From Magnetococcales bacterium (GTDB lineage Bacteria > Pseudomonadota > Magnetococcia > Magnetococcales > JADFWU01), in the NCBI GenBank assembly GCA_015234045.1, contig JADFWU010000094.1:1-5865 (forward strand): DNA of 5,865 nt. The letters run 5' to 3'. The position numbers and the translations under genes were made by a program. Shown here in pieces: positions 66 to 5,865 of this stretch (position 1 is its first letter; the number at the start of each line of letters is the position of its first letter). The notes under the pieces were generated by a model, which was given only the letters and a program-made list of their open reading frames with translations, did no database searches and had not been told where the DNA came from.

Positions 66-296
66 ATGGTTGACTATGGCCGATTGTTTATCATCAATTT
101 GCAGGTTAATGATGAGTCTGAACAGATGAACATTCGGCACGGTTTACTGGGGCGTAGAGGTGGTTTAGAACGATTAATTCGTTCACACAATGCTCCTGTT
201 CTCTATAACCAGGGATGGCGAATGGAGTCCCAATGGGGCTTCTCCTGGTTTCAGGATGTTAACACCTCTGCGAGTAGTGTCACGCGTTATCGATAA
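66..296 (+). CDS. Possible small hypothetical protein, or 3' part of a gene entering from the left
   Basis: This is an uncertain gene. The ATG at 66 is preceded by AAGGAG at 53-58 with a 7-base spacer, a good Shine-Dalgarno arrangement, and would give a 76-residue basic protein. I do not recognise it: no signal peptide, membrane segment or known motif is visible. It is rich in Arg, Trp and Asn, and its Arg codons are mixed (CGA, CGG, CGT, AGA), which is weak evidence for a real gene. The same frame is open to the left edge, so it could instead be the tail of a longer gene starting outside the window. The stop TAA (294-296) lies 7 bp past the stop of the convergent - strand gene, giving a 10-bp tail-to-tail overlap. 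Another frame ends at 25-27 and could be the true end of the upstream gene, with this ORF spurious. Confidence 0.3.
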   Translation: MVDYGRLFIINLQVNDESEQMNIRHGLLGRRGGLERLIRSHNAPVLYNQGWRMESQWGFSWFQDVNTSASSVTRYR

Positions 297-297
297 C
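286..297. repeat. 12-bp perfect palindrome holding two convergent stop codons
   Basis: GTTATCGATAAC is fully self-complementary. It contains the TAA of the - strand gene (287-289 read in reverse) and the TAA of the possible + strand frame (294-296). There is no loop and no T-run on either side, so it does not look like an intrinsic terminator. It may be a protein-binding site or chance. Confidence 0.6.
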
Positions 298-1138
298 CTT
301 GATAAGGAGATCCGCCACCAGTTTTGCACCGTTCTGAACCATACTGTTGCATGAGCATTTGATAGTGTTTTTGGCATAACGACTCTTGGACATTGCCGCC
401 AGAACAGGCCTCACGCCGTCTTTCAAGTTGGGCACGAATCGTCTCATGTCGGGCAATGCAGCGGTTTTGCCAAACACATGTCAGGTGACGATGCATGGCA
501 GGCCCGGTTTGAGTTGGTTGTGGGCCACAGTCGGTCGTGTCCGTTGAGGCCTTTTTGGTGGGGGTTGCGGTCGTCCTTTTCTCGACTTGGGGTTGCTCGA
601 CTTGGGGCTGCTCGACTTGGGGGTTCTCAGGTTGAGTAGCGCCAGGGCGGTTTTGTGGACGCCAAGGCCAACCTTGATTGGCCATGCGATTGTGTTCACG
701 TCCGTGTTGAAAAACCGGTTCAGCGCGTTTTTTTGGCGCGGGTGGCTGGACGGTTTTTGCGTAATCCTGTATGGATGACTGTGTTTTGTTCACCAAGGTC
801 TGTACAGGCGTTGGTGCTGTATCAACCGGTGCGGCTTCGACATTTATGGCAATCGGCGGCTGAGTAGGGCAGCCAGACAGTTTATCCAGTGAAAAAGTGG
901 TTTCCGTTTCAGAGTTGGGGGGAGTCTGAGCAGAGTCGCTGTCTGTTGCTTCGTTTACTGCAAGATGATCTGTCACACTGTTTTGGGCAGTTGTTTCGTG
1001 CTTGGGCTGCGTTGTTTCTACCACTGCCTTGGGAATGGGAGCCCATCTGATGATGATGACCGCAAAGACAAGCCCGATGGAAATGCCTACAATATAGGGG
1101 CCGATTCCCTTAAAAAGCCAGTTCAGAAGCATATTCAT
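287..1138 (-). CDS. Hypothetical single-pass membrane protein with Pro/Thr/Gln-rich stalk and cysteine-rich C-terminal domain
   Basis: I do not recognise this 283-residue protein. From the ATG at 1138, residues about 13-32 form one hydrophobic segment followed by Arg-Trp. A short N-terminus and a long polar remainder suggest an anchor with most of the protein in the periplasm (inference). Residues about 35-200 are low complexity, rich in Pro, Thr, Gln, Glu and Ala, including three PQVEQ/K units at 173-187. The last 80 residues form a compact basic domain with six cysteines (about 204, 221, 227, 245, 255, 271), spaced as if for disulfides, and a Gly/Tyr-rich tail. A longer form begins at a GTG at 1174, but that start has no ribosome binding site and sits about 15 bases from the predicted transcript start. 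The ATG at 1138 has AAGG nine bases upstream and keeps the whole membrane segment. The gene stands alone, divergent from the RelA/SpoT homologue. The stalk resembles those of TonB-like or envelope-spanning proteins in composition only. Confidence 0.75.
   Translation of the reverse strand: MNMLLNWLFKGIGPYIVGISIGLVFAVIIIRWAPIPKAVVETTQPKHETTAQNSVTDHLAVNEATDSDSAQTPPNSETETTFSLDKLSGCPTQPPIAINVEAAPVDTAPTPVQTLVNKTQSSIQDYAKTVQPPAPKKRAEPVFQHGREHNRMANQGWPWRPQNRPGATQPENPQVEQPQVEQPQVEKRTTATPTKKASTDTTDCGPQPTQTGPAMHRHLTCVWQNRCIARHETIRAQLERRREACSGGNVQESLCQKHYQMLMQQYGSERCKTGGGSPYQGYR
581..625. repeat. Three tandem 15-bp repeats encoding PQVEQ/K
   Basis: Three near-identical copies of a CTCGACTTGGGGTTG-type unit start at 581, 596 and 611 and differ at only a few bases near their right ends. 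On the - strand they encode PQVEQ, PQVEQ and PQVEK in the stalk of the membrane protein. The unit is a multiple of three, so copy-number changes by slippage would lengthen or shorten the stalk without breaking the frame. Confidence 0.85.
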
Positions 1139-1147
1139 AAGACGGTA

Positions 1148-1151
1148 CCTT
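1148..1151 (-). promoter_or_regulatory. Ribosome binding site deciding the start at 1138
   Basis: Read on the - strand this is CACAAGG, with AAGG nine bases before the ATG at 1138. The in-frame GTG at 1174 has no purine-rich site before it. The site is short, so the choice is likely but not certain. Confidence 0.45.
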
Positions 1152-1169
1152 GTGCTTTTGCGCTTGATG

Positions 1170-1182
1170 GTCACTCAGTGAC
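1170..1182. promoter_or_regulatory. 13-bp inverted repeat, possible operator
   Basis: GTCACT-C-AGTGAC is a perfect palindrome with 6-bp arms around one central base. It lies just downstream of the predicted transcription start of the - strand membrane protein gene, where a bound repressor could block elongation. Function is inferred from position only. Confidence 0.35.
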
Positions 1183-1558: not shown

Positions 1559-3433
1559 ATGGATCTGACCGCACGTATTTCAGCACTTGTTGAGACAACG
1601 CGGGAAAAGCTCGGAGATGAGGCCGCTACACGGGTAGCACGTTCTGCTCAGTGGGCTATCCGTTTCCATGAAGGGCAAACGCGCAAATCCGACAAAGCGC
1701 CCTATGTTGTTCATCCTATTGATGTGGCTGAATCCTGTGTAAGGTGGGGATTGATTGACTCTGGGGCGATCTCCGCTGCACTGCTTCATGATGTCATAGA
1801 AGATGCGCCTGCTGAGATGGGTGCTGAAGCATTGCTGGATAAAGAAGATCCAGAGGTGGCCGAGATGGTTCGGGCGCTGTCTAAAATTCGAAATCTTCAA
1901 ACCGGTGCAGGTGACCTGCCTGCCACGTATCGACGCATTATTGCCGCTTCGGCTCGGGATATCCGTGTGTTGCTCATCAAAACATTTGATGTGCTGGATA
2001 ACTCACAAACCTTTCATGTGCATAATGATGCCAAAGCCAAAGCCAAGGCGAGTCTTGGTCTGGTCTATGTAGGCGTGGCGCGCCGATTGGGTGTTATTGT
2101 TCTCGCTGATCAGCTGATCAATCAACTTTTGCCTTATCTGATGCCAGTCCAAAGCAAGCGGGCTGGACAATCACTGAAAAATCTCCATGAAGCTGGCCAA
2201 CCCTCCATGGTTAATTTGGAGAAAAAGTTAGCAAATCTGATCAATCCGTCCCTGGTTTCTGAGCTGGAAATCGTTAAGCGTGAACTACCTGATTTCTTTC
2301 ATTTGGCAGAAAAACCGGGAACCGGTCGTCTGATGCGTGTGGGTTGGCCAGCCTTCAGGTTGCGCTTGATCGTGCCGGATCATCCGGCGGCTTGGCAGGT
2401 GCTTGGCATGATCCATCAGGAGTTCGATCCGCTTCCACGACATGTACGAGATTATATGAATGCGCCTAGAATCAATGGGTTCAGGGCGTTGACAACACGG
2501 ATTCTGTGGGAAGGTCATCCTATAACCGTGCAGGTGGTCCGAGAAATGGACCGTCGTCCCAATCAATATGGCATTCTGGCAAAATGGGGAGTGAGTAGTC
2601 CTTCTCTGGAAGCTTATCGTGGTCTTTTGGCGACATTGGGCGATTCAGATTTACGTATGTCTGAAGTGCATGCCCATGTTTTGCCTGATTTGTTGGATAT
2701 ATACTCACCGCGTGGTGATCGTTTTCCATTTCCCATTGGATCTGTCGTTTTAGATTTTGCCTATCGTGTGCATACCGAGGTGGGCGAACAGTGTGTTGGT
2801 GCCTTGGTGAATGGTATTCAGCGGTCGGCTGAATATCAACTGTGTGATGGTGATGTCGTTGAAGTTATTACAAAAAAAGGTGCTATGCCTCAACGTGCCT
2901 GGCTGGATCTTGTCAAAACAGCACGTGCGCGGACTTTGATTAAATATGCGTTAAATAGCAGGCAGATGTCGGTTGCTGGGGTTCAGAATAATCCTGATGG
3001 TTCGTTTGTTATTACTGATATCACCAGTAGAGAGGTGTTTTGGGCAACGTGTTGCCGTCCCATTCCTGGTGAATCCGTTGTGGGTCGTTTGGCAGGTGAT
3101 GGTCGATGGCTTGTACATGCGAGCGACTGTGAGAAAGTAAAAGGAAACCGATGGCAATCGGGCGTGTTGGATGTCAGTCAGAAAGGGATTCAGGCACTTG
3201 TTGTTACTTTTGCATTGAATCATCGAAGTGGTGCCTTGGTGAAGGTGCTTGAATATCTGGCAAAACATAATATTAATGGCCATTCAGTTCAGGGAAAAGG
3301 ACATTCACCCGATAAATATATCGTTGAGATTACCATGGGTGATGTGCCGTGCAATGTGTTACGTAATGTAATTAAAGAGATTGTTGAGATTGAGCCCGTT
3401 CAGGAAGTTATTGAATATTATTGGCTGGGTTAG
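1559..3433 (+). CDS. RelA/SpoT-family protein: (p)ppGpp hydrolase domain kept, synthetase domain degenerate
   Basis: This 624-residue protein has the long RelA/SpoT (RSH) layout. An HD hydrolase domain (about 25-195) carries H52, the pair H77-D78, E81-D82 in HDVIED, and D144 and N148, so the Mn-dependent residues that remove the 3'-pyrophosphate from (p)ppGpp are present. The usual ADRxHNMRT around D144 has become FDVLDNSQT. The synthetase region (about 255-350) is recognisable by RDYMNAPRINGF, but the GRxKxxYSI stretch is missing, the catalytic Asp before AFR is Pro264, the catalytic Glu of EVQIR is Thr323, and the guanine-stacking Tyr is Phe308. A TGS domain (380-440), a Cys-rich segment with CCRPIPGE (498-505) and C524, and a C-terminal ACT domain (about 545-624) follow. 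The helical region between TGS and CC motif is about 65 residues shorter than in E. coli SpoT. The start has GGTGAGG nine bases upstream. xth follows 48 bp later. I infer a hydrolase-only or regulatory RSH, and give no symbol because it is neither a typical relA nor spoT. Confidence 0.88.
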   Translation: MDLTARISALVETTREKLGDEAATRVARSAQWAIRFHEGQTRKSDKAPYVVHPIDVAESCVRWGLIDSGAISAALLHDVIEDAPAEMGAEALLDKEDPEVAEMVRALSKIRNLQTGAGDLPATYRRIIAASARDIRVLLIKTFDVLDNSQTFHVHNDAKAKAKASLGLVYVGVARRLGVIVLADQLINQLLPYLMPVQSKRAGQSLKNLHEAGQPSMVNLEKKLANLINPSLVSELEIVKRELPDFFHLAEKPGTGRLMRVGWPAFRLRLIVPDHPAAWQVLGMIHQEFDPLPRHVRDYMNAPRINGFRALTTRILWEGHPITVQVVREMDRRPNQYGILAKWGVSSPSLEAYRGLLATLGDSDLRMSEVHAHVLPDLLDIYSPRGDRFPFPIGSVVLDFAYRVHTEVGEQCVGALVNGIQRSAEYQLCDGDVVEVITKKGAMPQRAWLDLVKTARARTLIKYALNSRQMSVAGVQNNPDGSFVITDITSREVFWATCCRPIPGESVVGRLAGDGRWLVHASDCEKVKGNRWQSGVLDVSQKGIQALVVTFALNHRSGALVKVLEYLAKHNINGHSVQGKGHSPDKYIVEITMGDVPCNVLRNVIKEIVEIEPVQEVIEYYWLG

Positions 3434-3481: not shown

Positions 3482-4261
3482 ATGAAAATCGCCACCTGGA
3501 ACGTCAATTCTATTAATGTGCGCCTGCCACATGTGCTGGACTGGTTGTCCGAAAATTCCGTGGATGTGCTTTGTTTGCAAGAGACCAAAATGGTGGATGA
3601 GCGCTTCCCTAAGGAAGAGATCAATAAAGCGGGATACCAAGTTGAATTTGCTGGTCAAAAAACTTATAACGGTGTCGCTGTTCTGACAAAAAATCCTGTT
3701 CAATCCGTAGTAAAGCAGTTGCCAGGCATGGAAGAAGATCCTCAAAAACGCTTTTTGGCACTCACTGTAAATGATGTGCGTGTGGTGAATGTGTATGTGC
3801 CCAATGGAGCGGCATTGGATTCGGATAAATATCCCTATAAATTGAATTGGTTGTCCGCATTATATGCGTTTCTTGATCAAACGGTACAATCGCATCAATA
3901 CACGGTGGTTGTCGGCGATTTTAATATCGCACCGGATGACCGGGATGTGTATGATCCGCAAATTTGGCAAGGAGATCGGATTCTGGTCTCTCCACCGGAG
4001 CGCAAAGCGTTTACTGATTTTATCGCTTTGCCTATGGTTGATTGCTTCCGCAAAGTAGAACCCGAAGGCGGTCATTTTTCCTGGTGGGACTACCGGGCAG
4101 CGGCATTTCGTCGTAAGCGTGGATTACGTATTGACCATATTTTGGCTTCTGTGCCGTTGTCAGATCGTCTGAAGGATTGCAGAATTGATCCAGAACCAAG
4201 AAGTTGGGAACGTCCGTCCGATCATACGCCGGTTGTTGCTACTTTTGGGATGACTGATTAA
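3482..4261 (+). CDS. xth: Exodeoxyribonuclease III (AP endonuclease, ExoIII/Xth family)
   Basis: The 259-residue product belongs to the Mg-dependent endonuclease/exonuclease/phosphatase fold. In this family the enzyme cuts the backbone 5' to abasic sites in base-excision repair and has 3'-5' exonuclease and 3'-phosphatase activity. All key motifs are in order: N7 in WNVNS, E34 in LQETK, Y105 in NVYVPNG, D146 and N148 in GDFNIAP, D218-H219 in RIDHI, and the catalytic D247-H248 in SDHTP. Length is normal for bacterial ExoIII, and the protein is complete with no signal peptide. An upstream in-frame ATG at 3458 would add eight residues (MIYNREEK) not expected in the family. The start at 3482 begins with the standard MKIATWN and has a weak GAGAAG site five bases before it. 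The 48-bp gap after the RelA/SpoT homologue, with no terminator, suggests co-transcription. Confidence 0.97.
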   Translation: MKIATWNVNSINVRLPHVLDWLSENSVDVLCLQETKMVDERFPKEEINKAGYQVEFAGQKTYNGVAVLTKNPVQSVVKQLPGMEEDPQKRFLALTVNDVRVVNVYVPNGAALDSDKYPYKLNWLSALYAFLDQTVQSHQYTVVVGDFNIAPDDRDVYDPQIWQGDRILVSPPERKAFTDFIALPMVDCFRKVEPEGGHFSWWDYRAAAFRRKRGLRIDHILASVPLSDRLKDCRIDPEPRSWERPSDHTPVVATFGMTD

Positions 4262-4434: not shown

Positions 4435-4581
4435 ATGGTAAATGGGAAGATAGCTGGTTTGACACCCTCTGTCAAAGCAGCGACTACGCGCTTATTGATG
4501 GCGCTCTATGTCGGCGTCGGATACGGTTTGGTCTTGGTCTCAATGGCGCAGATCCTACAATTATTCACAAATCTGTCCTGA
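4435..4581 (+). CDS. 48-residue single-pass membrane protein, unrecognised
   Basis: I do not recognise this small protein. It begins MVNGKIAGLTPSVKAATTR, a basic, polar head. One hydrophobic segment follows at about residues 20-44, with a glycine-rich GVGYG at 27-31 that could allow tight helix packing, and the protein ends in TNLS. The positive head predicts a cytoplasmic N-terminus. It has no cleavage motif and so looks like a membrane-inserted small protein, not a secreted one. Support for a real gene is good for its size: a consensus ribosome site six bases upstream and an intrinsic terminator starting 18 bases after the stop. It is preceded by a 173-bp gap after xth in which I could not identify a clear promoter, so read-through from xth is possible. 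Possible roles are an accessory subunit of a membrane complex or a toxin-like small protein, but nothing in the sequence decides this. Confidence 0.65.
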   Translation: MVNGKIAGLTPSVKAATTRLLMALYVGVGYGLVLVSMAQILQLFTNLS

Positions 4582-5592: not shown

Positions 5593-5865
5593 ATGAGTCG
5601 TCAATTCTTCACACTGTTGATTCTGTTTTCTGCTCTGGTATCTTTCTCGCCTGTTACTGGTCAGGCAGAAGAGAATCCTGGTAAATCACTCCATGACGAG
5701 AGCTGCAATAGTTGTCACGCATCCCGGTTTGGCGGTAATCCTGATGAAATTTACACGCGCTCAAACCGAAAGAAAAAGGATTTTGATCAACTTCACAGTA
5801 TGGTGGCCTTTTGCAACCAGCAGACTGGTACAGGATGGTTTGATGATGAAGTGGATCAAGTGACA
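5593..5865 (+). CDS. Periplasmic c-type cytochrome, cut by the right edge
   Basis: The first 91 residues are visible and the frame is still open at the window end. Residues 1-25 are a Sec signal peptide with a short polar start, a hydrophobic core (FFTLLILFSALVSF) and a likely cut after GQA. The mature part has one haem-binding CNSCH at 38-42, so haem would be attached covalently in the periplasm by the cytochrome c maturation system. After it come RFGG, IYTRSNRKKK, a third cysteine at 74 in the stretch AFCNQQTGTGWFDDEV, and Asp/Val-rich residues. This resembles small monohaem cytochromes of beta- and gammaproteobacteria that usually end soon afterwards in a YLN...YY-type tail, so I expect about 20-25 more residues outside the window. 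M70 is the only methionine after the haem motif and the only candidate sixth ligand seen so far. The start has GGAG eight bases upstream. The redox partner is unknown. Confidence 0.88.
   Translation, partial: MSRQFFTLLILFSALVSFSPVTGQAEENPGKSLHDESCNSCHASRFGGNPDEIYTRSNRKKKDFDQLHSMVAFCNQQTGTGWFDDEVDQVT

Follow-up and report, generated by a model that had tools for sequence, protein, structure and literature searches.

The DNA analysed here (the window) is a Magnetococcales contig of 5,865 nt from a genome of 3.65 Mb in 117 contigs, and it carries a gene for a long RelA/SpoT homologue (RSH) that was noted earlier for combining an apparently intact hydrolase site with a dismantled synthetase site. 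This raises the question of whether the protein is a dedicated alarmone hydrolase and, if so, which enzyme makes the alarmone that it would degrade.

A long RSH protein without a helical domain

The gene encodes a protein of 624 amino acids in which Pfam recognised HD_4 at residues 31-179 (E 2.5e-21), TGS at 381-438 and, weakly (1.3e-6), RelA_SpoT at 268-343, with the first 28 positions of the last profile unmatched. The order of domains is that of the long RSH superfamily (HD, SYNTH-fold, TGS and zinc finger/ACT), but the helical (AH/HEL) domain of that superfamily is missing. The features are listed below with the evidence for each.

1559..3433, + strand: long RSH protein of 624 aa, predicted to act only as a (p)ppGpp hydrolase (type H); ATG start, Pfam, residue alignment
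1616..2143, + strand: HD hydrolase domain, about residues 20-195, with R42, Y49, K109, K141 and the seven ligands intact; Pfam, alignment
2156..2593, + strand: pseudo-synthetase domain, about residues 200-345, with P264, T323 and F308 and the ATP-side motif replaced; alignment
2609..2692, + strand: short Core segment, residues 351-378; conservation, linker lengths
2693..2884, + strand: TGS domain, residues 379-442, with the tRNA-CCA-contacting His (H405) kept; Pfam, alignment
2885..3022, + strand: shortened TGS-to-zinc-finger region, residues 443-488, helical (HEL/AH) domain missing; landmark spacing, domain scan
3023..3163, + strand: zinc-finger domain, residues 489-535, with C498, C499, H520 and C524 kept; alignment
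3191..3424, + strand: C-terminal ACT/RRM-like domain, residues 545-622; predicted structure, fold matches
3482..4261, + strand: xthA (exodeoxyribonuclease III), 48 bases downstream of the hydrolase gene; a conserved neighbour in several Magnetococcales families

The xthA gene is possibly co-transcribed with the hydrolase gene. On the other side, 287-1174 (- strand) encodes a proline/glutamine-rich protein of 295 aa with an N-terminal membrane segment and no Pfam match; its gene contains a 15-base tandem repeat at 581-622 (VEQPQ units), and many order-mates have distant relatives, with little conservation, next to the hydrolase gene and divergent from it. Between xthA and panE there is an open reading frame for a possible small membrane protein of 48 aa (4435-4581, + strand; MVNGKIAGLTPSVK...), and the start of a secreted c-type-cytochrome-like protein with a CNSCH motif (5593-5865, + strand) is cut by the contig end. 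Synteny of panE, xthA and the cytochrome-like gene was also seen at a second locus, L039.

The hydrolase site is intact and the synthetase site is dead

Residues were compared using a reference alignment of E. coli SpoT and RelA, A. baumannii SpoT (AbSpoT) and RelA and several Rel proteins, together with an orthologue set of 39 sequences from 38 Magnetococcales genomes (the numbers differ because two entries, L010 and L039, represent one gene). Seven ligands were counted for the hydrolase site and six residues for the synthetase site. All of the hydrolase ligands originally picked out by eye (H52, H77, D78, E81, D82, D144 and N148) aligned with the ligands of Rel and SpoT, and all seven were present in 39/39 orthologue sequences. 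Alignment with AbSpoT showed that the stacking Arg R42, Tyr49, K141, N148 and T/S151 are also retained in the family. There are, however, departures around the substrate. R144 of AbSpoT grips the 3'-pyrophosphate, and replacing it with Ala carries a 5-10 fold cost (PMC9974481); at its position 31 of the 39 orthologues have Val (V145 in the window protein), and a further basic residue, R161, is lost. The window protein alone has D147, where 35/39 orthologues have His. The guanine-contact loop carries a one-residue insertion (R-K-x-D-x-x-P-Y, with the Asp invariant), and His takes the place of Leu in the guanine packing site. The changes at V145, R161, D147 and the loop mean that hydrolysis may differ in its rate and its base specificity.

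The substitutions that had been read at the catalytic Asp, the catalytic Glu and the guanine-stacking Tyr (P264, T323 and F308) were all confirmed by the alignment. Position 264 is Pro in every one of the 39 sequences, position 323 varies between N, S, T and K, R241 is Glu in 38/39, and K251 and R327 have become L and V, while K243 is conserved as K or R. The GRxKxxYSI motif is absent, as proposed, but the segment has not been deleted: the stretch is occupied by a conserved clade-specific motif, E-x-[KR]-x-x-x-D-[FY]-F-x-L-x-E-[KNR]-PGTG. On the guanine side, R297, D298, Y299, P303, R304, N306 and G307 are kept in 39/39, with F or Y at 308. Overall the orthologues retained none of the six synthetase residues (13 rows) or one (26 rows), compared with 6/6 in bifunctional controls (5/6 in one case). 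The family-wide combination of seven hydrolase ligands, Pro at 264 and no more than one synthetase residue goes beyond chance. The window protein, with 7/7 hydrolase and 0/6 synthetase residues, has the residue pattern of SpoT[Hs]. Its loss on the ATP side had been thought more extreme than in gammaproteobacteria; this did not hold, as A. baumannii SpoT also scores 0/6 for those residues. Nor is the case singular, the dead synthetase site being a fixed trait of the order Magnetococcales.

A reciprocal paralogue has an intact synthetase site

The earlier note had reasoned that such a protein would need a second synthetase elsewhere in the genome. When the window's genome was searched for other RSH genes, one was found with a dead hydrolase site: a long RSH of 706 aa, encoded after yicC, gmk and an rpoZ-like ORF (genome G000, contig C116), that has 6/6 synthetase residues and 2/7 hydrolase ligands. 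Partners sampled from 30 Magnetococcales genomes were alike in this respect (30/30 with 6/6 synthetase residues and 0-2/7 hydrolase ligands). The yicC-gmk-rpoZ locus is the spoT locus in E. coli, and two Rsh genes from alphaproteobacteria likewise come after rpoZ. It is thus the partner that sits at the spoT locus (gmk-rpoZ-spoT), whereas the hydrolase gene lies beside xthA; the gene at the ancestral locus has therefore become the synthetase, the reverse of what is seen in beta/gamma-proteobacteria. Two further RelA_SpoT-domain proteins are encoded in the same genome, one of 385 aa (L006, contig C95, 5255-6412) with matches of similar length in many order-mates and one of 636 aa (L007, contig C69, 5357-7267); these are possible small synthetases or toxin-like proteins.

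HD_4 matches in the window's genome were confined to the window protein and the partner with its dead hydrolase site, which leaves the window protein as the one HD_4-type hydrolase found there with an intact site. The order has 27 high-quality genomes (at least 90% complete and at most 5% contaminated), and in nine of them HD_4 appears to be restricted to these two proteins in the same way.

Both genes are maintained throughout the Magnetococcales

Hydrolase and partner genes were both present in 27/27 high-quality genomes, although in G041 only a fragment of the hydrolase gene was recovered, where a contig ends. When 398 Pseudomonadota genomes were scanned with a profile of the dead synthetase domain, 40 Magnetococcales scored 209 bits or more and scores elsewhere did not exceed 71.4 bits, so that the domain was not found in any other lineage among those genomes; the Magnetococcales genomes without a full match were incomplete or contained fragments. 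Scanning genome contigs with 8-residue patterns, which gives a weak negative, returned a single Magnetococcales, all other matches being generic Rel. For close orthologue pairs, dN/dS was about 0.10 for the hydrolase domain, 0.07 for the dead synthetase domain and 0 for the Core, values which are rough since the pairs are non-independent and dS is near 1. The dead synthetase domain is subject to purifying selection. A decaying pseudogene or local oddity was ruled out by the open frames, the order-wide orthologues and the low dN/dS, and a phage or plasmid gene by the finding of only generic matches (24-33%) in phage and plasmid collections.

Some additional relatives were encountered. Contig C290 of genome G022 carries two truncated relatives of the hydrolase close together (L083, 4432-5574, 380 aa; L084, 2198-3613, 471 aa), of which one retains HD motifs (LHDVLED, FDVLHN) and the other is degenerate; both are without the zinc finger or ACT end. 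A 4 kb contig of the G041 assembly (C185) encodes an ordinary bifunctional Rel with 7/7 and 6/6 residues (L085, 341-2353) that groups with Gram-positive Rel, and is contamination or a transfer.

Short linkers, a conserved Core and the predicted structure

The alpha6-alpha7 and Core linkers are known to shorten along with hydrolase specialisation (PMC9974481), and their lengths in the orthologues fit this published trend for hydrolase-only SpoT. The alpha6-alpha7 linker is 15 aa in 39/39 orthologues, compared to 15 in AbSpoT, a median of 17 in bifunctional enzymes and 23 in RelA; the Core linker is 39, compared to 45, a median of 52 and 52, respectively. In the same comparison the stretch that would contain the helical domain measures 53 aa, as against 117-134. 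Spacing between two landmarks for the TGS-to-zinc-finger region is 52-54 aa in all 39 sequences and 85-152 in other long RSHs, and PF19296 was absent from the window protein and one orthologue but present in both partner proteins scanned. The helical domain between the TGS and the zinc finger is deleted in the hydrolase family. No segment of the protein is more strongly conserved than the Core (89% mean pairwise identity, against 64% for the hydrolase and 62% for the dead synthetase domain).

A predicted model of the window protein had a mean pLDDT of 85.8, and its top Foldseek match by E-value was full-length SpoT (7qpr). The superposition suggested in the earlier note succeeded in part: the predicted fold matched the catalytic domains of RelSeq (1vj7_B; Z 28.7, rmsd 2.2 over 302 residues), but the whole chain superposed poorly on SpoT (rmsd 15-28 A), and the compact tau-like state considered below is therefore proposed by analogy. 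For the Core, pLDDT was 63-80 in the window protein, whereas most values for the partner were 36-46, a contrast that appears to be in line with the published one, bearing in mind that the alignment depths of the two predictions differ. Residues of the Core that have been probed in AbSpoT could not be aligned one-to-one with the hydrolase family because the Core segment of this family is shorter.

Function of the window protein and alternative explanations

The reading that best accommodates these observations is that of a dedicated alarmone hydrolase needing another synthetase, as first suggested, with the predicted partner now found across the order. We consider it very likely that the 1559-3433 gene product, a long RSH in architecture, acts solely as a (p)ppGpp 3'-pyrophosphohydrolase. 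Its HD domain, which by homology binds one Mn2+, would remove the 3'-pyrophosphate of (p)ppGpp, while the former synthetase domain, without its catalytic Asp and Glu and its ATP-side motif, would act as a regulatory scaffold. The short, near-invariant Core and the TGS are expected to keep the protein compact and competent for hydrolysis, in a form resembling the tau-state of Acinetobacter SpoT. Without a helical domain, activation on the ribosome would be unlikely, and hydrolysis is predicted to be ribosome-independent. The reciprocal paralogue encoded after gmk and rpoZ would take over (p)ppGpp synthesis.

The departures around the substrate could instead mean that the HD domain acts mainly on some other 3'-phosphorylated or pyrophosphorylated nucleotide, such as (p)ppApp or NADPH. 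The insertion with its invariant Asp in the base-contact loop, the Val in place of the Arg for the 3'-pyrophosphate and the His in place of Leu would all suit such a substrate, and HD relatives with other substrates, the (p)ppApp hydrolase 7smg and Mesh1-NADPH, were among the fold matches. However, R42, Tyr49, K141, N148 and T/S151 are retained, and the partner has every residue of a GTP/GDP pyrophosphokinase in a genome with no other HD_4-like enzyme found to remove its product, and we regard this explanation as unlikely. It is somewhat less likely still that the protein is a regulatory pseudoenzyme or an enzyme of low activity, which mainly senses and titrates alarmone or controls the partner while an unrecognised enzyme carries out hydrolysis. 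The loss of some catalytic-side Arg residues, and the better conservation of Core and TGS than of the hydrolase domain as a whole, could be read in this way, but in the absence of catalysis one would not expect every metal and catalytic ligand to be conserved in all 39 sequences. Least credible of all is a synthetase domain that remains active through an alternative set of residues: the guanine side is largely kept and K243 persists as K/R, but with Asp replaced by Pro in 39/39, Glu323 by N/S/T/K, R241 by E in 38/39, K251 by L and R327 by V, synthesis by this domain is highly improbable. A monofunctional (p)ppGpp hydrolase is the preferred explanation.

Origin of the two genes

The partner carries the motif RxKD or, in one case, CxKD (30/30), whereas beta/gamma RelA has E/QFDD (9/9); in the 2011 RSH survey RxKD goes with bifunctional enzymes and ExDD with beta/gamma RelA (PMC3153485). 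In trees the partner stood apart from RelA, with a weak affinity to alphaproteobacterial Rsh, and a clade of RelA and partner was weakly rejected (AU p 0.045 for all domains, 0.014 for synthetase+TGS). Neither of the marks of RelA[hS], ExDD and descent within beta/gamma RelA, was therefore found in the partner, and the split looks independent of that in beta/gamma-proteobacteria. The hydrolase family has a very long stem (2.4 changes) and no stable sister; joining it to SpoT (AU p 0.24) or to the partner (0.52) was not rejected in either case. On these trees the hydrolase copy may be a sister of the partner, a sister of SpoT or a transfer. As a tentative scheme, which we hold to be possible rather than probable, a bifunctional Rel would have undergone an independent, mirror-image split in which the gmk-rpoZ copy became the synthetase and a divergent, relocated copy, without its helical domain, a ribosome-independent hydrolase whose dead domain, with its retained half-site, still binds guanine nucleotide as an allosteric sensor.

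Comparison with known systems

The closest known counterpart is the SpoT[Hs] of Moraxellaceae, exemplified by A. baumannii SpoT (7qpr; PMC9974481, PMC3153485), which is likewise a long RSH with intact hydrolase ligands and a dead synthetase. The alpha6-alpha7 and Core linkers are short in both (as short or shorter in the Magnetococcales) and both genomes encode a synthetase-only partner. In AbSpoT the TGS, together with a Core that is short and structured, keeps the hydrolase-only enzyme compact and active (PMC9974481). Unlike the Moraxellaceae gene, the Magnetococcales hydrolase gene lies away from gmk-rpoZ and its product is missing the helical domain; its partner has RxKD and not ExDD, and the trait spans a whole order. 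The guanine side of the dead site, lost in AbSpoT, is kept. The partner resembles beta/gamma RelA[hS] in its intact synthetase and lost hydrolase ligands, but differs in its ancestral gmk-rpoZ locus, its RxKD motif and the weak rejection of a RelA clade.

For Magnetococcus, the 2011 survey gives Rel[HS], rshD[HS], divRel[HS] and pbcSpo[H], both long forms being two-domain (PMC3153485). Its RshD/second-copy Rel of strain MC-1 is also a second, divergent long RSH, and that entry probably includes the hydrolase gene; it differs in being labelled [HS], and in the survey text that was searched neither the synthetase loss nor the reciprocal loss in the partner is mentioned. No other treatment of ppGpp in Magnetococcus or of the stringent response in Magnetococcales was found in the open literature. 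The survey's labels of both activities ([HS]) for the Magnetococcus long RSHs are corrected here.

Division of labour between a hydrolase and a synthetase, both long RSHs, has until now been characterised closely only in Acinetobacter and its relatives. The Magnetococcales offer a second, apparently independent, case in which making and degrading (p)ppGpp are completely divided between two long RSHs, fixed throughout an order. They can be used to ask if hydrolase specialisation generally proceeds through short linkers and a rigid Core, as has been proposed on the basis of Acinetobacter SpoT alone, and whether the ribosome-coupling domain becomes dispensable once synthesis has been delegated.
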